NCBI GenBank assembly: GCA_029261295.1
Contig: JAJDBP010000018.1
Span: 1-64,000, forward strand
DNA from: Nitrospirales bacterium
Lineage (GTDB): Bacteria; Nitrospirota; Nitrospiria; Nitrospirales; UBA8639
Length of the DNA stretch: 64,000 nt
Direction: 5' to 3'
The translations under genes were made by a program, and so were the position numbers. Positions 30,516-43,528 of this stretch are shown here, in pieces. The notes under the pieces are model-generated. The model had not been told where the DNA came from, did not search any database, and saw nothing but the letters and a program-made list of their open reading frames with translations. The first letter of the stretch is position 1. Each line of letters opens with the position of its first letter.

Positions 30516-30959
30516 ATGCGATTTTTTATGTATGCGGACAATCTCAACGCCTCCCAATTAAAACGGCGAGCACCTGAACACCAATTTTTGTTTAAGGCCT
30601 ACATTCCTGACCACACCATTTCATTTGGCCGTTGGTCCAATCAATGGCGATGTGGCCTTGCCACGATTACTCCCTCTGCCGGGGAACGGGTTTGGGGTGC
30701 GGTTTTTGAATTAACCCAGGAAGACGTCAAAGAACTAGACAAATTTGAGGGTGATCTACCTGAAGAAGCGTTTCGACATATTGAAATTCACGTGTTTACA
30801 GAAGACGATCAAAAGGAATTCGTGACCACCCATGTCGGACAAGCGATTGGGAAGTTTAAGGCAAAAGACCATTATTTGGATTGGGTCATGACAGGCGTTC
30901 AAAAATGGGAATTACCTAACGAATGTATTGATATGTGGGATCTCTTCCGCACTCGGTAA
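30516..30959 (+). CDS. Gamma-glutamylcyclotransferase-like (GGCT/AIG2) protein
   Basis: A 147-residue protein with the GGCT fold: MRFFMYADNLN (for YGSNL), WGAVFELTQEDVKELDKFEG with the catalytic Glu in KFEG, and a C-terminal KAKDHYLDWVMTGVQ. Family members open gamma-glutamyl amine bonds; substrates range from glutathione-related peptides to modified proteins. AGGA supports the ATG. It leads a tight set with the ferredoxin and MoaB genes. Confidence 0.82.
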   Translation: MRFFMYADNLNASQLKRRAPEHQFLFKAYIPDHTISFGRWSNQWRCGLATITPSAGERVWGAVFELTQEDVKELDKFEGDLPEEAFRHIEIHVFTEDDQKEFVTTHVGQAIGKFKAKDHYLDWVMTGVQKWELPNECIDMWDLFRTR

Positions 30960-31034
30960 CGCAAAACACAACTAAAGACCCGTTCTATCCTATCTCAAAG
31001 CTTTTTCACATTCTTTTAAGAACAAGGAGATTCT

Positions 31035-31361
31035 ATGCCAAAGCCAAAATATCATATTCTTGTGTGTACAAATTCTCGTCCTCCCGGCCACCCCAAACCT
31101 TCGTGCGGATCAGCAGGAGCTCAGAATCTACTGATGGCCTTGAATATGGGATTGATTGAACGTGGAGTAGAACCAGGGGAAGTGTTGGTGACCGGGACAA
31201 CCTGCCTTGGCCCCTGTGAACAAGGACCAAATGTTGTGGTCTACCCCACAGGCACTTGGTATTCACAAGTCAAAGATTCAGATGTGGCCATCATTTTAGA
31301 CGAGCATATTAAAAAAGGAGAACCTGCCACACAACTCAACCCTGATTCGATTTGGGCCTAG
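31035..31361 (+). CDS. Thioredoxin-like [2Fe-2S] ferredoxin
   Basis: A 108-residue protein of the thioredoxin-like ferredoxin (complex I NuoE-type) fold. Four Cys are arranged as CTNSRPPGHPKPSCG and TTCLGPCEQGP, the cluster ligands of this family. Such proteins carry electrons in redox enzymes. ggagattct right before the ATG is a strong start signal. It precedes MoaB with a short gap. Confidence 0.88.
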   Translation: MPKPKYHILVCTNSRPPGHPKPSCGSAGAQNLLMALNMGLIERGVEPGEVLVTGTTCLGPCEQGPNVVVYPTGTWYSQVKDSDVAIILDEHIKKGEPATQLNPDSIWA

Positions 31362-31388
31362 CTTCCTTCGACAAGAAAGTATTCGATT

Positions 31389-31937
31389 ATGGGTGATCAT
31401 ACCCAACATGAAGAACATACACACTCTGACCAGCCCTCACATGTCTCCCATAAGGCCCATGGCTCAATTGCACTTGATTGCGTAGTGGTGACCTGTAGTG
31501 ATACCCGCACAAAGGATACCGATACAAGCGGGAAACTCATTTGCCATTTACTCAAAGAACACGGGCATACGATTAAGGACTACCAGCTCAGTAAAGATGA
31601 ACCAGCAGAAATTTCCCAGCTACTGAAACAAACAGCTCAACATCCCGATAATCAGGTGGTTATTATTAACGGAGGAACAGGCATTTCCAGGCGAGATTCT
31701 ACGTTTGAAGCTGTTGATGAGTTTTTACAAAAAAGACTGGATGGATTTGGTGAATTGTTTCGCTACCTAAGCTTTAAGGACATTGGCTCGGCGGCCATGC
31801 TCAGCCGTGCAACCGCAGGTATCCATGAGAATTTGGTCATTTTTTCAATTCCAGGATCTCGCGGCGCAGTTCAATTGGCGATGGAACAATTGATTCTCCC
31901 TGAAATGAGCCATATTGCGGGAGAGCTATCAAAATAG
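31389..31937 (+). CDS. moaB: Molybdenum cofactor biosynthesis protein MoaB
   Basis: A 182-residue MogA/MoaB-type protein. It has SDTRTKDTDTSG, the GGTGISRRDSTFEAV loop that binds molybdopterin, and the PGSRGAVQLAMEQLILPEM C-terminus. MogA adenylylates molybdopterin before molybdenum insertion, while MoaB's role is similar or partly redundant. The His-rich extension (HTQHEEHTHSDQPSHVSHKAHG) is not usual and might bind metal. No other moa/moe gene is near. Confidence 0.9.
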   Translation: MGDHTQHEEHTHSDQPSHVSHKAHGSIALDCVVVTCSDTRTKDTDTSGKLICHLLKEHGHTIKDYQLSKDEPAEISQLLKQTAQHPDNQVVIINGGTGISRRDSTFEAVDEFLQKRLDGFGELFRYLSFKDIGSAAMLSRATAGIHENLVIFSIPGSRGAVQLAMEQLILPEMSHIAGELSK

Positions 31938-31991: not shown

Positions 31992-32924
31992 TTAATACAC
32001 CATCTTTCCTTCGGCCACCATCACCACCTGGCCACCTACCTTAATTTCCTGAATCATATCGTCATCTGAAAAGATTTGAACGAGAATCCGTGAAGGGCGA
32101 TCCATTTCAAACCCCTGTTCCATCACGACTTCCGTCGTCGGCCCGATCTCCACAACTCCATTTTTCACTAAATACGCCCCCAATGCCCCACTAGCACTCC
32201 CGGTCGCTGGATCTTCTGGAATCCCAATGGGGTCGGCAAACATACGGGTATGCACCGTAGAATCTTCTTCGAGGGTCATCGTGGTAAACACCATGATCCC
32301 ATTTACACCTAATCGAGCACATAAATCACAAATTGCCGCATGATTCACCTGCATAGATTTCACGGCCGTCAATGTTCGAACTGGTACAATTAATACGGGC
32401 AACCCAGTGGAGGCGACCTCTACAGGAAAAGGGGAATCTGTAATTAACGACTTGTGAATTCCCAATGCTTTCGCCAGTTCATACAGCATTTCGACCTGTA
32501 AGACCACCTCGAGAAACTCGGGAGCGGGTTGAGTCATGACGACTTGTTCAATTTGACCTTTGAGGACAATAAGCTCTAGTGGAAATACCCCAATATGGCA
32601 TTCATACCATATTTTTGTCACCGGCTCCTGGATGGGAAGACGCTTAAGGGCAGCAAGTATAAAAAACGTACCTAAAACTGGGTGCCCAGCAAAAGGGAGT
32701 TCTTGAGAAGGGGTAAAGATACGGATTTTTGCGACGGCTCGGGAATCGATCGGAGGCAACACAAAAACGGTCTCCGAAAGATTCATTTCTCTGGCAATTT
32801 GCTGAAACTCCCGATCCGTCAATTGACCCGCATCAGGAAATACGGCAAGCGGATTCCCACCAAATGGTTCGCTTGTAAAAACATCCGCCTGATAAAACTG
32901 AAGCCAATTACGAGAAATATCCAT
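31992..32924 (-). CDS. PhzF-family isomerase/epimerase-like protein
   Basis: A 310-residue protein of the diaminopimelate-epimerase-like PhzF fold: QADVFTSEPFGGNPLAV, LSETVFVLPP, FTPSQELPFAGHPVLGT, and the paired second half (PEDPATGSASGALGAYL). PhzF isomerises 2,3-dihydro-3-hydroxyanthranilate in phenazine synthesis, but most genomes carry a copy of unknown substrate, as is likely here. The ATG at 32924 is preferred over a TTG upstream. Confidence 0.9.
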   Translation of the reverse strand: MDISRNWLQFYQADVFTSEPFGGNPLAVFPDAGQLTDREFQQIAREMNLSETVFVLPPIDSRAVAKIRIFTPSQELPFAGHPVLGTFFILAALKRLPIQEPVTKIWYECHIGVFPLELIVLKGQIEQVVMTQPAPEFLEVVLQVEMLYELAKALGIHKSLITDSPFPVEVASTGLPVLIVPVRTLTAVKSMQVNHAAICDLCARLGVNGIMVFTTMTLEEDSTVHTRMFADPIGIPEDPATGSASGALGAYLVKNGVVEIGPTTEVVMEQGFEMDRPSRILVQIFSDDDMIQEIKVGGQVVMVAEGKMVY

Positions 32925-33001
32925 GACAATTTGGCACAGGACCAAGAAACAATGAACGAGCAGCTTTCAAGACCGAAAATTATTCGAGAAAGATAGCAGG
33001 T

Positions 33002-34240
33002 TTATGCAGTAAGCGGAAAGGCTTCATAGGAACGAGTCAAAGGATTTCGCACATAATCTTCCACGTAATTTTGCAAAGAACCATTTCTATATAAACGATT
33101 ATTAGCAAACTTGGTATCAATTTTCCTTAAGGTTCGTACTTTCACCCCGGTCATTTTGACAAAGTCATCTACATGAACTCCCGCAATATCTCGCCCCGCA
33201 CCTCGTCCAGATTCGACAACACTTTGAGGGATATAAATATACTTTTCATTAGTCAGGCATTTGGCAATATCATTGAGTGTCAGCAACACCGTACAATCTG
33301 AATCTCCACCAAGCGTGGCATTCGGGACATGCAAAAATTTCGCTCGACCCTTTCGGAACATTTTTAAGATCCGATAGACACTTCCCGCCATCACAACAGG
33401 ATCACGCTTTTCTAGCTCTAACGAATCAAATAAACTAATAATACGCCGGCGATTGAGAAATGCCGTCACGTAGGCTTCCGTATGAATGGTGGTCGAATTC
33501 GGAAGCCCAGCATCATAAATTTTTTCGGCTTCAACAGGCAGATATTGTCGGCCTTGCCGCATGATCGTCTTGGTTAAATCATTAATGCCACCGACTGGCG
33601 TTAAACAGCCCATCCATAAGACACATTTCGAATTAATTTCTGAAATAGCTTTGGCATCTTTTGACATAGTATCCTGATCAAAAGCATAAAAATTCGCCGA
33701 AGATACAGCCGGGCCATCCAACACTTTCATTAAATGCTTCACTGATGGGGCGTGCGGCATTAATTTCTGTCGATAGTCGCCAAGAGTAATCACAGATAAT
33801 TCGAAATTAATTCGGCCAGGATATTGCTCCACCAATCGATGAATCTTAGGAACATGAACAAACCCAACCGTAAAGAATTGAACATTCTTATCAGTATGAA
33901 TTAGGAAGTCCTCAAGCCACTCCATTGCCTTGGGATGCAAAAAAAGATCCGTCCACTCCATGAATTCATTTCCCCCCAAACACCAAAATTGTAGGGGGTC
34001 CGTCGGCCGGGAATTGATATAATTCAGCATAAATTCCCAGTCTTCCTGCGTCGTCTTTGGTGGATCGAGCGTTTCTCTGTACGAATGATCTAATTCATAG
34101 CAAAACTCACATTTTACCGGACAAGCTTTTCCAAGGCTGAGGGGAATTTTCCCCGCATCCATTTCTCGCTTTAACACATCACGATAATTTTGTTTTCCAA
34201 ATAACTGAGGGGCTTCCAATAGGGGGAGTTCTCGTGCCAT
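33002..34240 (-). CDS. DUF512-like radical SAM protein
   Basis: A 412-residue radical SAM enzyme. The cluster motif is canonical: CPVKCEFC (CX3CX2C). The C-terminal part (about 300-400) has HVPNATLGGDSDCTVLLTLND and VHVDDFVK, which resemble the VPN...FGG...LLTG.D and FLDD blocks of DUF512-family radical SAM proteins; this is a weak, remembered match. A linker GLPNSTTIHTEAYVTAF lies between. Role unknown; it may process a protein, tRNA or cofactor. It is part of a strand-mixed neighbourhood with two B12-type radical SAM genes downstream on the same strand. Confidence 0.75.
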   Translation of the reverse strand: MARELPLLEAPQLFGKQNYRDVLKREMDAGKIPLSLGKACPVKCEFCYELDHSYRETLDPPKTTQEDWEFMLNYINSRPTDPLQFWCLGGNEFMEWTDLFLHPKAMEWLEDFLIHTDKNVQFFTVGFVHVPKIHRLVEQYPGRINFELSVITLGDYRQKLMPHAPSVKHLMKVLDGPAVSSANFYAFDQDTMSKDAKAISEINSKCVLWMGCLTPVGGINDLTKTIMRQGRQYLPVEAEKIYDAGLPNSTTIHTEAYVTAFLNRRRIISLFDSLELEKRDPVVMAGSVYRILKMFRKGRAKFLHVPNATLGGDSDCTVLLTLNDIAKCLTNEKYIYIPQSVVESGRGAGRDIAGVHVDDFVKMTGVKVRTLRKIDTKFANNRLYRNGSLQNYVEDYVRNPLTRSYEAFPLTA

Positions 34241-34334
34241 TAGTGTACTCTACTCGTCCAATCGTTCAATTAAAATCTCGAAAAATTCGATTGACAGAAA
34301 GACCAGCCATCTGAAAAACTCGACTCAGAACCGA

Positions 34335-34616
34335 ATGTCGCCAATCAGAAACTTCACCCACATGAATTCACTTGACTCAACAGCAATAGAACAGGCCATA
34401 CAATTATTACATCTCACCAAACCACTTTCGAAAGAAGCTTTAACGCAACGTTATGAGGAAGCTCGCCGAACTTGGTATCCCTCCCGTTATGCAGGCCTCA
34501 CCAACAATCCTGGGAAATACATGGAAATGTATAAAAAGGGAGAGGCTAAAACCAAAGAAATTCAAGCAGCCTATCAACTACTCCTCACTTACCTGGAAAT
34601 CCAGGAAGAGAGTTAG
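34335..34616 (+). CDS. Degenerate J-domain-like small protein
   Basis: A 93-residue (or 84 from the ATG at 34362) all-helical protein. The pattern LTQRYEEARRTWYPSRYAGLTNN, then KEIQAAYQLLLTYLE, follows the spacing of a J domain (helices II and III with the conserved A-Y at the end), but the essential HPD is replaced by YPS. It should not activate DnaK. It may be a scaffold for the nearby radical SAM enzymes; that is inference. No strong ribosome site is visible. Confidence 0.5.
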   Translation: MSPIRNFTHMNSLDSTAIEQAIQLLHLTKPLSKEALTQRYEEARRTWYPSRYAGLTNNPGKYMEMYKKGEAKTKEIQAAYQLLLTYLEIQEES

Positions 34617-34664
34617 GCCTTTCTCTTCTTAGACATCCCTCAATTCCATCCTGAAGAAATGAGA

Positions 34665-36632
34665 TTAGGGAGCCACATGACTGACAACCCGGGACATTCC
34701 TGATTCTCCAGACCCATCTTTCTCGGCAGGACCATGAGCTACCGGCCAGGTCACCAGTCCTTGCACCCCATCAGTTCGTGGTTCTTCCTGCCCAGCTTCC
34801 ATGGCATAAATTTGTGGGAGATAATTAGTGCCGTATTTCGAAATATAGAGAAAAACATGCTCTCGAGCATTCACTCGAACCGCCCAGGGCTCAAAGTCCT
34901 TTTGATAGAATTCTTCGGCCTTTTTCATCGCGTCTAAACACGTCATGCCACCTGGTTCGTTCAGCGTATAATAGTAATCCAATGGCATATCATAATCGTC
35001 CTGTTTATGAATCGTAATCCCAAACTTATCAGGATTCCTGACCATTGGCGTATGCCGATACGCCACAAAATAGAATAACTCAACCGAATGAATATACCGT
35101 TTGTTATCCAAAAGAAATTGACGAGTATCTTCAGCTTCATCAAACGTTTCACCGGGAAATCCGTAGAAAGCCATCACATGATTCCAAATGCCTGCTTTGG
35201 CGGCTTCTCGTAAATTGTTCTCAATGACAGATTTCTTGGCATGCTTATCCATTAATTCCAATACGCGCTCATTCGCTGATTCCATCCCATAATAGAGCGT
35301 ACAGCAACCAGCCTCCACAGCCTGCTTCCAAATCTCAGGATCTTGCAGCGTCTCCTCAAACCGAATCAAGGTCGTCCATTTAATTTTGACTTTTTCTTGA
35401 ATTAACAATTGAGAGACTTTTTTCAATAAAGCTGGTGGGTAGGATTCATCAGAAAACAAAAAGTGTTTCGCGTCATATTTATCTTGCAAGGCCTTAATTT
35501 CTCGTACCACATCCTGTGCTGGCTTACCACGATATTGATCGAAATATCCTTGGCCATGGTCACAAAATGTACACCGCCCCCAATAACACCCTCGCGTCGC
35601 GAGATACGGCAAAATTCGTTCAGGCACAAAGTACATATCGAGTGGCAACCCATCAAAATCTGGAAGAGGCAACGCGGTGGTCTTCTCGGTATAAATTTCC
35701 GTATTGACCTTGACCTGGCCATCCTGATGCCACATGAGATTCGGAACTTGTTCCCAGGCCCGCTCCCCCGCCAACGCTTCCAACAGCCAAACAAGAGCAT
35801 GTTCACCCTCATAGAGAATGGCCGAGTCAAACACATCAGTAAAAAATTTATCCTGCTTTGGAAGGTCTTCTTGCAATCGAGTGATCACATTCCCGCCAAC
35901 GGTCACGTGAATATCCGGAAATTCGGCCTTAATCATTTTGCAAAAGGTCATCCCCGCCAATAACTGCATTTGGGTTCCTATAGAAATACCCACTACTTCT
36001 GGCTGTTCTTTCTGAATAGCAGGAAGGACCAGTTGTCGGCAGACATCCCGGTAGATATTCACCTGTTCATCTTCCAGACTTGCTAACACTTCAGTAGATA
36101 CCCCGGAACGATACCCTAAGTTGCTTTCCATTGGATAAAACACCAGAGATGCCGGGAAATAGGCAGCCGAAATATATTGCATCACATCTCGAAAGGTATT
36201 CAGCGCCCCTTCCAATTTTTCAGCCTGGTAAAATCCTTCTCCCCGAACAATGATCTTGGCTTCTTCAGCCTGGTCAGCCAAGGCCATCACATCAACCCCA
36301 TCTTGTGCACGAAGGCACGTCAATCGTTCACGTTCCACATCGGATAACTGCTGACGAACTTCTCGCTCTTCAAGCCCGCGACGTTGCTGATCCATTCGCA
36401 TCTTGACCCAAATCAAGAAGTTAGCAGTAAAAAACAAATCGTACATTTCAATATTAATGTCTTTTTGAATGACCTCATGCCCATAGTCCCGAAGAACAGC
36501 GGTGAGACTAGGTAACGCAAGATAGGGAGCTGTAGGAACCCATTCCGGGGGAAAGAGGAGCATTGTTTTGAACTTGCGGCGAGGCTTTGCGGTTGATGTT
36601 GCCCCGTCAATATCAATAAGGGTATCAGTCAT
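34665..36632 (-). CDS. B12-binding radical SAM enzyme, paralogue 1
   Basis: A 655-residue enzyme. The N-terminal part (about 25-260) is a Rossmann-like cobalamin-binding domain: FPPEWVPTAPYLALPSLTAVLRD followed by VVGISIGTQMQLLAG. The radical SAM core begins with TRGCYWGRCTFCDHG, cluster Cys at 349, 354 and 357. Note four, not three, residues between the first two Cys. FSDESYPPALLKK and AFYGFPGETFDEAEDTRQFL follow the barrel logic. Class members methylate unreactive carbons or modify substrates with methylcobalamin. It is nearly adjacent (19 bases) to the next paralogue. Confidence 0.9.
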   Translation of the reverse strand: MTDTLIDIDGATSTAKPRRKFKTMLLFPPEWVPTAPYLALPSLTAVLRDYGHEVIQKDINIEMYDLFFTANFLIWVKMRMDQQRRGLEEREVRQQLSDVERERLTCLRAQDGVDVMALADQAEEAKIIVRGEGFYQAEKLEGALNTFRDVMQYISAAYFPASLVFYPMESNLGYRSGVSTEVLASLEDEQVNIYRDVCRQLVLPAIQKEQPEVVGISIGTQMQLLAGMTFCKMIKAEFPDIHVTVGGNVITRLQEDLPKQDKFFTDVFDSAILYEGEHALVWLLEALAGERAWEQVPNLMWHQDGQVKVNTEIYTEKTTALPLPDFDGLPLDMYFVPERILPYLATRGCYWGRCTFCDHGQGYFDQYRGKPAQDVVREIKALQDKYDAKHFLFSDESYPPALLKKVSQLLIQEKVKIKWTTLIRFEETLQDPEIWKQAVEAGCCTLYYGMESANERVLELMDKHAKKSVIENNLREAAKAGIWNHVMAFYGFPGETFDEAEDTRQFLLDNKRYIHSVELFYFVAYRHTPMVRNPDKFGITIHKQDDYDMPLDYYYTLNEPGGMTCLDAMKKAEEFYQKDFEPWAVRVNAREHVFLYISKYGTNYLPQIYAMEAGQEEPRTDGVQGLVTWPVAHGPAEKDGSGESGMSRVVSHVAP

Positions 36633-36651
36633 CGTAATCCCTTCCTAATGG

Positions 36652-38547
36652 TTATACCGAGGCAAGAGTTGAGGAAGGATCTTGTGAGCCTAATTGGAAC
36701 TGCAACGCTGGCAATTTATTTGAACCGAAATGTGAAACATAGAGAAAGACGTATTCCCGAACAAAGATTTTTAAATCCCATCCGGCATAATGATTTTGCT
36801 CAAATTCCTCGAATACCCGCTCGGCATCTTCAATACTCAAACCTTCTTTGACCGTAAAGTAATAATCCATGGCCAAATCCCATTCAGGGTTTTGATAAAA
36901 GGTAATCCCAAATTTCTCAGGATTCTTCGCCACCGGAGTATGCTTACTGAGGTCAAAGGTTCCAAATCCAATGGAATGCACATGTTCACGATTATCTTCC
37001 AAAAATTGGGTAGAAAATTTCGCGTCCTCGTAGGTCTCCCCAGGAAATCCAAAAAAGCCCATCACATGATTCCAGACACCATGACGTGACGAAAGCTCCA
37101 AGCTCTGTTGGATAATTTCAGTCGTCGTGGCCTTATCCATTAATTGTAAGACTCGCTCACTCCCCGACTCATAACCCATATGCAAATACTTGCATCCAGC
37201 GTCTTCCGCGTCTTGCCAAATCTCATCCGACAAGAGGCTTTTTTCAAATCGAATATGTGTGGTCCAGGCAATATCCAACTTGGATTCGACCAGCTTTCTC
37301 GTCAATTTCCTGAACAGAGCCGGTGGATAGGACTCATCAGTAAAATGGAAATGTTTGGTCTGATATTTCTCTTTCAAGAAGGTGAGTTCGTCAATGATTT
37401 GCCAATCCTTTTTCGTGCGATATCCAGAGGTATAGCCTTCTCCATGATCACAAAATTCACAACGTCCCCAATAACAGCCTCGCGTAGCTAAATATGGCAA
37501 AATCGGCTCAGGGACGAAATACTTTTCCATCGGCAACCCATCAAAGTCTGGTGGAGGCAAGGCTCCCATGTTCTCCGCAAATGTTTCACTATTCACATGA
37601 ATACCTGCGTCATCTCTGAAAATCAGATTCGGTACATGCGAAAGCTCTGTCCCATTGGCAATCCCTTCTACCAATCGCAACAGGGCCGTTTCGCCTTCAT
37701 AGACAATGGCACTATCAAACAACGCAAAGAGCTTGGGCGTGTTGGGTAGCACATCCCGGAAACGGGTCACCGTATTCCCACCAATGGTGACATGGATGTC
37801 CGGAAATTGTTCCTTGATCATCGCGCAAAAAGTCATGGAGGAAAACAATTGCTGACGAAGTACAATGGAAATGCCAATCACCTCTGGCTTTTCAGCAAGA
37901 ATAGCGGGTTTCAAGATATGCTCAAACACATCGCGATACACATTCACTTGAGTGTCATACACCGCATCCAACACTTCAGTCGACATGAAGAGCTTATAGG
38001 AAAGATCCGTTTCCATCGGAGGCATACAAATTCGAGCGGGGGAATAGACAAGAGAAATAGTTGTGGTGACTTCCCGAAAGACGGCAATAGCCCATTCAAG
38101 CCTCTCACTATCGTAAAACTCCGGGGTGCGCACCACTCGTTTGGCTTCTTCAGCCTTTTCAACCAATTCTCCAATTCGACTTCGTGAACAATCACAGAGC
38201 GCGAGCTGCAACTCAACTTCCGCCTCAGTCAAATCCCGATCTCTAGATATTTTTTTCAATCGGTCCAACTGCTGCGGAACTTTTTTGAGCACACGACGAA
38301 GAAAATCTCCACTAAAAAACCAATCATACATTTCAAGATTGACGTCTTTTTGTATCACCTCATGCCCAGCCTCTCGAAGAAAGGCGGTTAGAGTTGGAAG
38401 ACTGAGGTAGGGTTCAGAGGGATACCAATCAGGAGGAAAAACTAACATGACCTTCCCCCGTTTTCCTGGACTGACGGAAGTTGAGGAAGATTGGGTTTTC
38501 GCACGAAGAGGACTAATTAAGCCGCCTTTGTCATAATTGATTCTCAT
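36652..38547 (-). CDS. B12-binding radical SAM enzyme, paralogue 2
   Basis: A 631-residue paralogue of the preceding gene along its full length (PPDWYPSEPYLSLPTLTAFLREAGHEVIQKDVN, ILPYLATRGCYWGRCEFCDHG, HFHFTDESYPPALFRKL, FFGFPGETYEDAKFSTQFLEDN). Its cluster Cys are 358, 363 and 366, with the same CX4CX2C spacing. The C-terminal ends differ most, so the two may take different substrates. The first 25 residues are basic and Ser-rich. It is first in the minus-strand pair; a divergent promoter region with palindrome 38778-38793 lies upstream. Confidence 0.9.
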   Translation of the reverse strand: MRINYDKGGLISPLRAKTQSSSTSVSPGKRGKVMLVFPPDWYPSEPYLSLPTLTAFLREAGHEVIQKDVNLEMYDWFFSGDFLRRVLKKVPQQLDRLKKISRDRDLTEAEVELQLALCDCSRSRIGELVEKAEEAKRVVRTPEFYDSERLEWAIAVFREVTTTISLVYSPARICMPPMETDLSYKLFMSTEVLDAVYDTQVNVYRDVFEHILKPAILAEKPEVIGISIVLRQQLFSSMTFCAMIKEQFPDIHVTIGGNTVTRFRDVLPNTPKLFALFDSAIVYEGETALLRLVEGIANGTELSHVPNLIFRDDAGIHVNSETFAENMGALPPPDFDGLPMEKYFVPEPILPYLATRGCYWGRCEFCDHGEGYTSGYRTKKDWQIIDELTFLKEKYQTKHFHFTDESYPPALFRKLTRKLVESKLDIAWTTHIRFEKSLLSDEIWQDAEDAGCKYLHMGYESGSERVLQLMDKATTTEIIQQSLELSSRHGVWNHVMGFFGFPGETYEDAKFSTQFLEDNREHVHSIGFGTFDLSKHTPVAKNPEKFGITFYQNPEWDLAMDYYFTVKEGLSIEDAERVFEEFEQNHYAGWDLKIFVREYVFLYVSHFGSNKLPALQFQLGSQDPSSTLASV

Positions 38548-38880
38548 CTATAATTCCTAGGTAAAAATATTAATTGTTTATCGCTGGGAAATATCCGAGA
38601 AAGCCCATGTCCATTCACCTGATTATAAGAAAAGTAACTCTTTGATTTATCAATATTTTTTGACAAATCGATTGTGCATTCTAAGTCCTTGAAAAATAGA
38701 TGGTCAAGGGCACCCATGAAATGATTACCAGAAGAACCACCCTGCAAAATTGACCCAATTTCTGCTATCGATTACTATACGTGTATACATGTAAACAGTC
38801 CCGCCTAAAAAGCAGACTCCTTCACCCACAACGTTCGGCCTTCCTGTCTAGATAAAAGGGAGGCGTATTGAGGAATCACC
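38548..38880. other. Divergent intergenic region with palindrome
   Basis: Between the radical SAM gene and the unknown gene at 38881. Besides the palindrome I find no open frame with a ribosome site; a 67-residue frame at 38544-38747 lacks one. Nothing else is recognised. Confidence 0.4.
38778..38793. promoter_or_regulatory. Palindromic operator candidate
   Basis: tacgtgtatacatgta has a perfect tgtataca core and 14 of 16 symmetric bases. It lies 88 bases upstream of the gene at 38881 and in the divergent promoter of the radical SAM pair. The core tacgtgta is shared with the site at 570-587. Confidence 0.35.
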
Positions 38881-39399
38881 ATGAATGCTATGATTGTGCC
38901 TGAACCACGAAATTGGATGTCCTATCTGATGGATTCGTTAGTCAATTCTGGAGCCATGCCGACATGGGACGCCATGGAATATCTCACAACCAACTTGGTG
39001 GGAGAAGCCCCAAATCCGAATTTACATCATTCCAAATCACCTTATGAAACGATTCAACAATTATTACATCGCGTTTATAGGCCTATCGTCGAGGCAGCTT
39101 CACGGACCGTCACCATCCCACAGCAATCCATGATTCACATGTTTACGGACATTAGCCTTATGGGCAAATCAGCCATTCTCGTCGTCTACCATCCAGGACA
39201 GAATCAACCGCATCAATTACTCCTACTCGATTCGATCCCAGCCTGGGATATTGTTTTTGAAACCTCATCAGGATTTAACAACTGGGCAGAAGAACGATAT
39301 GGGTGGATTGTGTCAGCCCTTAAAACCGTCGCTCATCCAGCTGGATCAGCTCCTATTGAACAAATCGCTGATTTGCAACCGGCATTGGTGGAATCCTGA
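38881..39399 (+). CDS. Unknown protein beside the radical SAM cluster
   Basis: A 172-residue cytosolic protein, no signal peptide or membrane helix. It has helical stretches (LMDSLVNSGAMPTWDAMEYLTTNLVG) and a beta-rich segment (KSAILVVYHPGQNQPHQLLLLDS). No domain is recognised. The ATG is preceded by gaggaatcacc, a good site. It faces the radical SAM pair across a shared promoter region, and the short gene at 39427 follows at 28 bases. Confidence 0.7.
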   Translation: MNAMIVPEPRNWMSYLMDSLVNSGAMPTWDAMEYLTTNLVGEAPNPNLHHSKSPYETIQQLLHRVYRPIVEAASRTVTIPQQSMIHMFTDISLMGKSAILVVYHPGQNQPHQLLLLDSIPAWDIVFETSSGFNNWAEERYGWIVSALKTVAHPAGSAPIEQIADLQPALVES

Positions 39400-39426
39400 C
39401 CTCTGACCCTGCTATGGTGATAGCCG

Positions 39427-39651
39427 ATGCCAATTAATGTCCTACCAAAAGAGACTCCACGAGGCCGAGGTCCCGATCCTACTCAAGTTGCCAATACTAA
39501 AGCAGAAGGGTCGGCCGAAGGTGAAAAAGCCTTACAAGAAAAGGAATCCGAGCTCGCTGACCTTGAAACCCAAGCTCTCTGGGAATCCCAAGAAGTAGGC
39601 AACACGAGTTGGTCAGGCGCCGACGGCACCCGCTACTCCGACCCCCACTAA
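39427..39651 (+). CDS. Small acidic protein of unknown function
   Basis: A 74-residue hydrophilic, Glu-rich, probably disordered protein (GEKALQEKESELADLETQAL) ending in VGNTSWSGADGTRYSDPH. No homology is recognised. Its position, close after a cluster gene, and a polar tail make a precursor or substrate role imaginable, but nothing in the sequence proves it. The ribosome site (ggtga) is weak. Confidence 0.5.
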   Translation: MPINVLPKETPRGRGPDPTQVANTKAEGSAEGEKALQEKESELADLETQALWESQEVGNTSWSGADGTRYSDPH

Positions 39652-39847: not shown

Positions 39848-42800
39848 TCAGGCTTTATCTGGATCGTATCCAAGATTGGGGGAGAGCCAGCGTTCGACCA
39901 CCGGCACTTCCATGTCTTTTCGCTTGGCATAGTCTTGGATTTGGTCTTTTTTCAATTTCCCCACCGAAAAATATTTGGCTTGGGGATGGGCAAAATAGAA
40001 GCCACTGACTGAGGCCGCCGGATACATCGCATACGATTCGGTGAGTGTGATTCCAATATTTTTTTCAACCTGAAGCAACTCAAACAAGTGCTGCTTCTCC
40101 GTGTGATCCGGACAGGCCGGATAGCCTGGTGCGGGGCGAATGCCACGATATTTTTCTTGAATGAGTTCCTGGTTGGTCAATTCTTCGTCTTGTCCGAACC
40201 CCCATTCCTTCCGCACTTCGCGATGTAACCATTCGGCAAAGGCCTCTGCTAACCGGTCGGCCAGAGCTTTAGTCATGATGGAGTTATAATCATCATGATC
40301 TGCTTCAAACCGCTTACAGAGGGCTTCAACTCCAATACCCGTTGTGACGGCAAAGCCACCGATATAGTCCGCCTTGCCGCTGGATTGAGGTGCCACGAAA
40401 TCCGCTAATGCAAAATGAGGATCACCCTTGGGCTTTTCACTTTGCTGGCGCAAGGTATGGAAAACGGAAATCGGTTCAGAACGCGTTTCATTGGCATAGA
40501 TGGTGATGTCATCCCCCTGACTATTCGCGGGGAATAATCCGTATACGCCTTTCGCGGTGAACAATTTTTTGTCAATTATTTCATTCAGGAGCTTTTGCGC
40601 GTCATCAAAGAGTTCTTTGGCTTTTGGACCCACAACGGGATCCTCAAATATCTTTGGATATTTCCCCCGCAATTCCCAAGCCTGGAAAAACGGTGACCAA
40701 TCAATGATGGGAACCAGGGTTTCGAGCGAGAAGTCTTCAAGAACTTTGACACCTAGGGAGCTTGGCTTGGGGATGTCCGTGGTCGCCCAATCAATATCCA
40801 CACGCTGTTTTCTGGCATCCTCCAACGAGACAAGTTTTTTGGCTGAGGTTTTGGACTCATAGGCTTCACGAGTTTTCTGTTGTTTCTCCTGAATATCCTG
40901 AACAAAGGCGGCCTTATCGTCTGTGCTCATGAGTTTACGCACCACATTCACGGCTAAGGACGCATCTAAGACATGCACCACCGGATTCGTGTAACCTGGC
41001 GCAATTTTCACCGCCGTATGGGCCTTACTAGTCGTGGCTCCGCCTATAAGTAAGGGGACTGTAAAACCTTGGCGCGTCATTTCTTTTGCGTTTTGAACCA
41101 TCTCATCTAACGAGGGCGTAATCAGCCCACTGAGCCCTATAATGTCGACATTTTCCTCACGTGCCTTTTGTAAAATTTTATCGCATGGAATCATGACACC
41201 CAGATCAATAATTTCATAGTTATTACACGCCAACACGACCCCCACAATGTTTTTCCCAATATCATGCACATCCCCCTTGACGGTCGCGAGCAAGATTTTC
41301 CCTTGGCTCCGACTCGCGCCTGCCTCTTTTTCCGCATCCATAAACGGCAACAAATACGCCACCGCCTTTTTCATGACCCGCGCGCTTTTCACCACCTGTG
41401 GCAAAAACATTTTTCCCGCACCAAACAATTCCCCAACGATATTCATGCCGTCCATTAACGGACCTTCAATCACATCCAAGGGCTTATTGAGTTTCTGACG
41501 GGCTTCCTCAACATCGGCATCAATAAATTCGACAATCCCTTTAATCAACGCATGTGAAAGCCGTTCCTCCACCGTTCCCTTGCGCCAGGCATCATCTTTG
41601 ACGACCACTTTGCCTTGTTGTTTCACCGTCTCGGCAAAGGTCACCAATTCCTCGGTGGCTTCTGGGCGACGATTCAACAAGACATCCTCCACCAGCTTCA
41701 GCAGGTCTTTGGGAATTTCTTCATAGACGCCCAACTGGCCTGCATTCACAATCCCCATATCCAACCCGGCCTTCACGGCATGGTAGAGAAATGCCGTATG
41801 CATGGCTTCGCGCACCACATTGTTGCCTCGAAACGAGAATGAAATGTTGCTGACTCCGCCACTGACTTTACAAAACGGCAACGTGGCTTTGATTTGTTTC
41901 GTGGCTTCAATGAAATTCACGGCATAGCCATTGTGTTCTTCCATGCCGGTGGCCACAGTCAAAATATTGGGATCAAAAATAATGTCTTCTGGTGAAAAAT
42001 CCAACTTATCCGTTAAGAGCCGATAGGCTCGCGTACAAATTTCTACCTTTCGTTCAAACGTATCCGCCTGCCCGGATTCGTCAAACGCCATAATGACGGT
42101 CGCTGCGCCATACCGTTTAATGAGCTTGGCTTGTTCCAGAAATTTTTCTTCGCCTTCTTTCAGACTGATGGAATTGACCACACCTTTTCCCTGAATACAT
42201 TTCAAGCCCGCCTCAATAACTGACCATTTCGAACTATCGATCATGATGGGTACGCGGGAAATATCCGGCTCAGAACCAATCAGGTGTAAAAATTCCACCA
42301 TCGCCTTTTCTGAATCTAAAAGTCCTTCATCCATGTTCACATCGATGATTTGGGCCCCGCCTTCTACTTGCTGACGGGCCACGGCTAAGGCTTCCTCCAA
42401 CTCTCCATTGAGAATCAGCTTGGCGAATTTTGGAGATCCCGTGACATTGGTTCGCTCACCAATGTTGAGAAAGTTCGCCTCCGGTCGAATAGCCACCGGT
42501 TCTAATCCACTTAAGCGAGTCATACGCGGAATGTGTGTTTTTTTATGCGGGGCACAATCCTTCACTCCTTCCGCAATGGCTCGAATATGATCGGGGGTAC
42601 TTCCGCAACATCCGCCCACAATATTGACCCATCCCTGGCTGGCAAAGTCTCGAAGATCTGCGCCCATGCGTTCTGGAGTCTCATCAAACCCGCCAAAGGC
42701 ATTGGGCAACCCCGCATTGGGATAACAGCTAATATAGGTGGGAGCCACCTTGGACAGTTCAGCGATATAGGGCCGCATTTGCGGAGCTCCTAAGGCACAA

Positions 42801-43528
42801 TTAATTCCCACACTCAAGAGATTGGCATGGGAAATGGAATTCCAAAAAGCTTCGATCAATTGCCCTGAGAGCGTGCGACCACTCAGATCCGTAATGGTCA
42901 CAGAAGCCATGATGGGAATATCACGATGTATTTCTTCGCAGTATTGCGCAATGGCAAAAAAAGCGGCCTTGGCATTCAAGGTATCAAAAATGGTTTCGAC
43001 CATAAGCAGGTCGACGCCCCCTTCGACTAACCCTTTGACCTGCTCATAATAGGCCTGAGCTAAGTTATCGAAGGTGACCGCTCTAAAGGCTGGATTATTG
43101 ACATCAGGCGACATGGACGCTGTTCGATTCGTTGGTCCTAGCGCACCAGCCACAAAACATTGGCGACCCGGCTGTTCGGCCTCGACACGAGCGGCCGCCC
43201 TTTTTGCCACTTGAGCCCCTGCCACATTGAGCTCATGGGCGAGCGTTTCCATGTGATAATCAGCCATGGAAATCGCGTTGGAATTAAAGGTATTCGTCTC
43301 GATGATATCTGCGCCCGCTTGAAGATATTGGACATGAATATCTTCGATGATCTTTGGCTGCGTCAGGACCAATAGATCATTGTTGCCTTTCACGTCACAG
43401 ACATGATCGACATATCGTGTTCCACGAAAATCTGCTTCCTCTAATTTATGGTTTTGAATCATCGTCCCCATTGCACCATCCAGCACAAGGATCCGACTAT
43501 TTAATAGCTCTTCCATTTTTTCGATCAT
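39848..43528 (-). CDS. metH: Cobalamin-dependent methionine synthase
   Basis: A 1226-residue four-module enzyme, same length as the enterobacterial form. Homocysteine domain: [15 protein letters not shown] and [10 protein letters not shown] (zinc Cys residues). Pterin domain (about 355-615): [20 protein letters not shown]. Cobalamin domain: [16 protein letters not shown] (the DXHXXG lower ligand). Reactivation domain: [15 protein letters not shown] for AdoMet binding. It transfers a methyl group from methyltetrahydrofolate to homocysteine. No cobalamin or SAM riboswitch is visible upstream. It gives the AdoMet that radical SAM enzymes nearby would use, but this may be coincidental. Confidence 0.98.

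Follow-up and report, generated by a model that had tools for sequence, protein, structure and literature searches.

The window analysed here is a stretch of 64,000 nucleotides from a Nitrospirales bacterium (contig JAJDBP010000018.1), a genome whose relatives are Nitrospira MAGs and isolates. Three radical SAM genes span positions 33002-38547 of the window, and the following features were recognized in and around them:

30516-31937, beside phzF: run of genes for a GGCT-like protein, a [2Fe-2S] ferredoxin and moaB
31992-32945, minus strand: phzF, PhzF-family isomerase (TIGR00654, 6.8e-75)
33002-34240, minus strand: rsamC, DUF512-like radical SAM enzyme (ORF call)
34335-34616, plus strand: J-like protein of 93 aa with a degenerate J-domain (ORF; PDB J-domain profile match)
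34665-36632, minus strand: B12a, class 1 cobalamin-binding radical SAM enzyme (Pfam Radical_SAM and B12-binding)
36652-38547, minus strand: B12b, class 1 cobalamin-binding radical SAM enzyme (Pfam Radical_SAM and B12-binding)
38881-39399, plus strand: U172 (ORF; no Pfam family matched)
39427-39651, plus strand: 74-aa ORF
39848-43528, minus strand: metH (NCBIfam metH)

The J-like ORF, on the opposite strand, meets B12a tail-to-tail on one side and is transcribed divergently from rsamC, 94 bp away, on the other. phzF follows rsamC on the same minus strand after a gap of 56 bp, and the lengths of its orthologues suggest that its true start is the ATG near 32924.

The ORFs and their Pfam domains agree with the first-pass annotation that two B12-binding radical SAM paralogues lie 19 bases apart. 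B12a and B12b are 48% identical, and both have the class 1 architecture, an N-terminal B12-binding domain plus a Radical_SAM domain (3.1e-18 for Radical_SAM and 1.1e-8 for B12-binding in B12a; 6.2e-14 and 1.3e-7 in B12b, where the B12-binding score of 31.9 bits is 0.2 bits under the cut-off of 32.1). This architecture is shared with PhpK/BcpD (TIGR04479), the RiPP C-methyltransferases (TIGR03975) and OxsB, and B12a gave weak PDB sequence matches to OxsB and to 9ccb (named MgmA). Among the NCBIfam models, those of radical P- and C-methyltransferases come closest, with scores of 105-132 bits that fall far under the cut-offs of 282-600. Against the PhpK P-methyltransferase and RiPP C-methyltransferase models, respectively, B12a scored 132 bits (cut-off 600) and 105 bits (cut-off 282), and B12b scored 119 and 129 bits; neither protein passed either model. 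Unlike the known class 1 enzymes, B12a and B12b carry an insert of ~130 residues in the B12 domain, and their cluster cysteines are spaced CX4CX2C, not CX3CX2C; in B12b, the N-terminal B12 domain with its insert is accompanied by the cluster motif RGCYWGRCEFC. The unusual spacing (RGCYWGRCxFC or RGCYYKDCAFC) is common to B12a, B12b and a third paralogue, which is 32-35% identical to them and widespread in Nitrospirales (L084:8218-10008, that is G000 contig 9, ~461.2-463.0 kb; also L085 and L086). The neighbours of this third paralogue are of the nitrite-oxidoreductase-type accessory kind and encode a type II DMSO reductase gamma subunit, a chaperone, a NapG-type ferredoxin and TatA.

The small protein between B12a and rsamC had been described as degenerate J-like, and rightly so: its profile matches DnaJ J-domains in the PDB (E 4e-4), and the Asp of the HPD motif is replaced throughout the alignment, all aligned sequences having WHPH, WNPA, WYPS and similar. 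Because this Asp is missing, the protein cannot work as a normal J-domain. The phzF product matches the PhzF isomerase family over its full length and above the TIGR00654 cut-off; in contrast to a phenazine context, no phenazine genes were seen in the block.

We assessed the conservation of the locus by a sequence scan with rsamC, which yielded 69 loci, all from the Nitrospirales group (one record carries a Nitrospinota label). Gene order and orientation are kept in these 69 loci down to ~70% protein identity, and the arrangement of rsamC, J-like, B12a and B12b is far beyond chance. Counting only testable loci, those with enough flanking sequence, the J-like gene lies at most 700 bp upstream of rsamC in 64/64, B12a is the upstream neighbour of rsamC in 54/55, and B12b is found at most 4.2 kb upstream in 41/44. 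The tight pairing noticed in the window is confirmed as a conserved arrangement in two families of Nitrospirales. phzF directly follows rsamC, within 1.5 kb downstream, in all 55 testable loci. The conserved block continues through phzF, beyond the region covered by the first-pass annotation, which had missed the isomerase as a member. The two facing genes of that annotation do exist as plus-strand ORFs (38881-39651), but they were rejected as part of the block: U172 is present in only 7 of 42 testable loci, and conservation of both it and the 74-aa ORF is limited to near relatives, in family f1 and a few other groups. Likewise, metH was found upstream within the flank read in just 6 of 39 loci and was rejected as a member, which supports the earlier suspicion that its adjacency may be due to chance.

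B12a and/or B12b were found in 149 of 162 Nitrospirales genomes (completeness floor 90%), a count in which the B12a threshold also lets B12b through, so that a few of these genomes have just one of the pair. Within the phylum samples, orthologues of B12a and rsamC were restricted to Nitrospirales, save one distant B12a match. A tblastn search of plasmids returned no rsamC match and only distant matches for the B12-binding radical SAM enzymes, and among the papers searched none was found with a description of these genes in Nitrospira or comammox bacteria.

A new result of this analysis is that rsamC most likely belongs, as a divergent member, to the class 2 (Mmp10/DUF512-type) cobalamin-dependent radical SAM enzymes. 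We base this assignment on a profile match, a Pfam DUF512 match in an orthologue, the fit of a structural model and an invariant lower-axial Leu. The label DUF512-like in the first-pass annotation proved correct, if subtle. The window protein matches Pfam DUF512 at E 0.088, under the thresholds, while 16 of 25 orthologues reach E <= 0.1 (best 3.3e-5) and the orthologue from G023 exceeds the Pfam cut-off with 25.3 bits. An hhalign comparison of the rsamC profile with standard DUF512 proteins of other Nitrospirota gave E 1.6e-5 over 286 columns; sequence searches of the PDB with the single rsamC sequence or its profile gave no match. DUF512 proteins bind cobalamin and form methylcobalamin from SAM, DUF512 being the cobalamin domain, with Leu366 beneath the cobalt in csDUF512 (PMC11659888). 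Placed by counting along the printed csDUF512 alignment, L366 corresponds to the leading Leu in GL[LI]T and aligns with rsamC L319, which is invariant in 32 aligned sequences and falls within the predicted C-terminal cobalamin domain (~280-371). The cysteines of the cluster motif C40-X3-C44-X2-C47 are invariant in 24 rsamC and 8 DUF512 sequences, and the residue after the last of them is aromatic, Y48 in rsamC, F in the DUF512 proteins and also aromatic in Mmp10. rsamC resembles csDUF512 (9cg1) and pfDUF512 (9cg2) of PF04459 in its CX3CX2C motif with following aromatic residue, its C-terminal predicted cobalamin domain and its cap-helix Leu. It differs from the DUF512 proteins in sequence (~19% identity), in ~35 extra residues at the C-terminal tail and in its confinement to Nitrospirales; it has no PDZ domain, and neither does pfDUF512. 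The Thr that is hydrogen-bonded to the dimethylbenzimidazole tail in csDUF512 (T323) is probably not conserved in rsamC: it aligns with Ala285, or else with a conserved Ser287 located two residues on. No standard PDZ-type DUF512 protein was found in the Nitrospirales sample, where the only DUF512 matches were two rsamC orthologues; such proteins are common in other Nitrospirota families (L104-L123).

The structural evidence for this assignment leans on the alignment used. A first AlphaFold model of rsamC, made with no DUF512 sequences, had a low-confidence C-terminal domain, was too weak to classify, and matched no Mmp10 or DUF512 structure. With DUF512 sequences in the alignment, rows that may bias the model toward the DUF512 fold, the model (pLDDT 70.8) gave Z scores of 15.5 to pfDUF512 9cg2 and 12.0 to csDUF512 9cg1, and of 14.6-14.9 to Mmp10 (7qbs-7qbv; 14.9 for 7qbt) over 307-316 residues. 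pfDUF512 and Mmp10 rank above all other PDB entries listed for this model. The predicted domain order and fold are like those of Mmp10 (7qbs), the methyl-coenzyme M reductase arginine methyltransferase, at an identity of 11-12%; methyl-coenzyme M reductase is not to be expected in Nitrospirales bacteria. Since rsamC probably belongs to class 2, all three radical SAM enzymes are probably B12-dependent, including the DUF512-like one, for which the first-pass annotation had not proposed cobalamin.

The distribution of rsamC was compared with that of ammonia monooxygenase genes. rsamC is present in 98 of the 162 Nitrospirales genomes (completeness floor 90%). amoA was detected in 42 of 80 genomes tested, mostly of two genera where rsamC is often absent, and in 0/80 of the other 80; amoB added five genomes, for a total of 47 amo-positive ones. 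The two traits are mutually exclusive: none of the 98 rsamC-positive genomes has amo, and none of the 47 amo-positive genomes has rsamC. Of the 65 loci read, those with rsamC have B12a and phzF 1.65-3.8 kb apart, and those without it mostly 0.1-0.6 kb, up to 1.2 kb. In the comammox loci, rsamC has been cleanly deleted, phzF lying directly beside B12a, and B12b, B12a, J-like and phzF are kept in nearly all deleted loci; three of them are also without detectable J, and one locus, at a contig edge, showed no B12b. A joint loss of the J-like gene with rsamC was rejected, since an HMM search finds J beside B12a in most rsamC-less loci. On a FastTree phylogeny of B12a, B12b and phzF, which is a locus tree and not a species tree, the tips without rsamC fall into four clades. 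Three of these hold the amo-positive genomes; the fourth (G314/G315, family f1) has no amo. In ten rsamC-less genomes of the two genera where rsamC is often absent no amo gene was detected, and these may be incomplete or truly without amo. The comammox correlation rests on few independent loss events.

The first-pass annotation had suggested a shared pathway for the three enzymes. The conserved linkage speaks for it, but one obligatory pathway is only partly supported, because rsamC and the B12 pair each occur without the other. The comammox genomes keep B12b, B12a and phzF without rsamC, and two genomes (G028 and G318) have rsamC without the B12 pair; incomplete assembly could account for both (G028 is 92% complete), although the G318 contig continues where the pair would lie. 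In family f2, rsamC, phzF and the B12 pair are on different contigs, and the J-like gene remains beside B12a in the one readable case (L100). The most economical view is that B12b, B12a, J-like and phzF form the core, to which rsamC adds a separable step. We give about even credence to the fuller proposal that the block is a Nitrospirales-specific modification locus, combining two class 1 paralogues, the divergent class 2 rsamC, a PhzF-type isomerase and a J-like protein. Each of the three enzymes would most likely be a radical methyltransferase that uses one SAM to methylate cob(I)alamin and another to generate the 5'-deoxyadenosyl radical, which activates a carbon of the substrate to receive the methyl group. 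B12b and B12a would probably act in succession on a shared substrate, be it a small molecule, a lipid or a protein; PhzF would isomerise an intermediate, the J-like protein may serve as an adaptor, and rsamC would add a separable late modification, kept by canonical nitrite oxidisers and lost by comammox bacteria. Going further, Nitrospirales might make a triply B12-dependent modification tied to nitrite oxidation, whose class 2 step would clash with ammonia oxidation, or become superfluous through it, and was lost at each comammox origin; we consider this unlikely as it stands.

The same observations bear on a real, if less favoured, possibility, namely that the genes are stable neighbours and not one pathway: B12b, B12a and J-like would form one unit, and rsamC, perhaps with phzF, would be a second, independent B12 enzyme, which the ancestor of families f1 and f3 gained between J-like and phzF. 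The unlinked arrangement in f2, where only J accompanies B12a, and the double dissociation of G028 and G318 from the comammox genomes both fit this, and rsamC, being transcribed divergently from the J-like gene 94 bp away, has its own promoter region. It is harder to reconcile with the more than 98% adjacency of B12a, J-like, rsamC and phzF over two families in which the flanking metH and U172 have turned over, and with the position of phzF, which still adjoins B12a after the deletion of rsamC.

Other explanations concern the substrate. One is protein modification: much like Mmp10 acting on methyl-coenzyme M reductase, rsamC would methylate a residue in a respiratory enzyme, a client presented to it by the J-like protein; this is rather doubtful. 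The target of Mmp10, the nearest characterised relative, is an Arg of McrA (PMC11659888), a J-like adaptor would suit such a role, and the third B12a paralogue belongs to a nitrite-oxidoreductase-type accessory cluster; however, that paralogue is at another locus, no client was identified, and the presence of a PhzF isomerase is more in keeping with a small-molecule route. A RiPP pathway, with the J-like or another small ORF as precursor peptide for the radical SAM enzymes, is very improbable: RiPP and P-methyltransferase models are the top ones for B12a and B12b, though below cut-off, whereas the J-like protein, encoded on the opposite strand, is related to J-domains, conserved and without a variable core, and the block has neither transporter nor protease. 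Slimmer still is the case for a methionine or methyl-cycle function linked to metH. In its favour, the gene adjoins the block in the window, genes for early methionine synthesis have been reported as absent from Nitrospira, where the early homocysteine steps are unknown (PMC8115632), and HcyBio (PF01837), which was considered as the missing methionine enzyme and rejected, is absent from the whole genome G000. The low count of metH upstream within the flank read (6/39) speaks against the link.

Nitrospira marina requires external vitamin B12, for which three users have been published: methionine synthase, ribonucleotide reductase and methylmalonyl-CoA mutase (PMC8115632). This demand would rise with up to three further B12 enzymes that are conserved across Nitrospirales. 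In the genomes tested, canonical nitrite oxidisers and complete ammonia oxidisers can be told apart by rsamC, and its mutual exclusion with amo provides a concrete lead to novel chemistry. Likewise, the constant genomic setting of this divergent DUF512 family offers a route to the first class 2 substrate outside Mmp10.

Further genes accompany phzF. In Nitrospiraceae, the next gene is often that of a conserved zinc-type alcohol dehydrogenase (L038:12379-13617), which is missing in the window; this gene was rejected as comammox-linked, since many comammox loci keep it, and it also accompanies phzF in family f2 (L102). The GGCT-like, [2Fe-2S] ferredoxin and moaB genes make up a second conserved run by phzF, moaB lying within 7 kb downstream in 44 of 47 loci.
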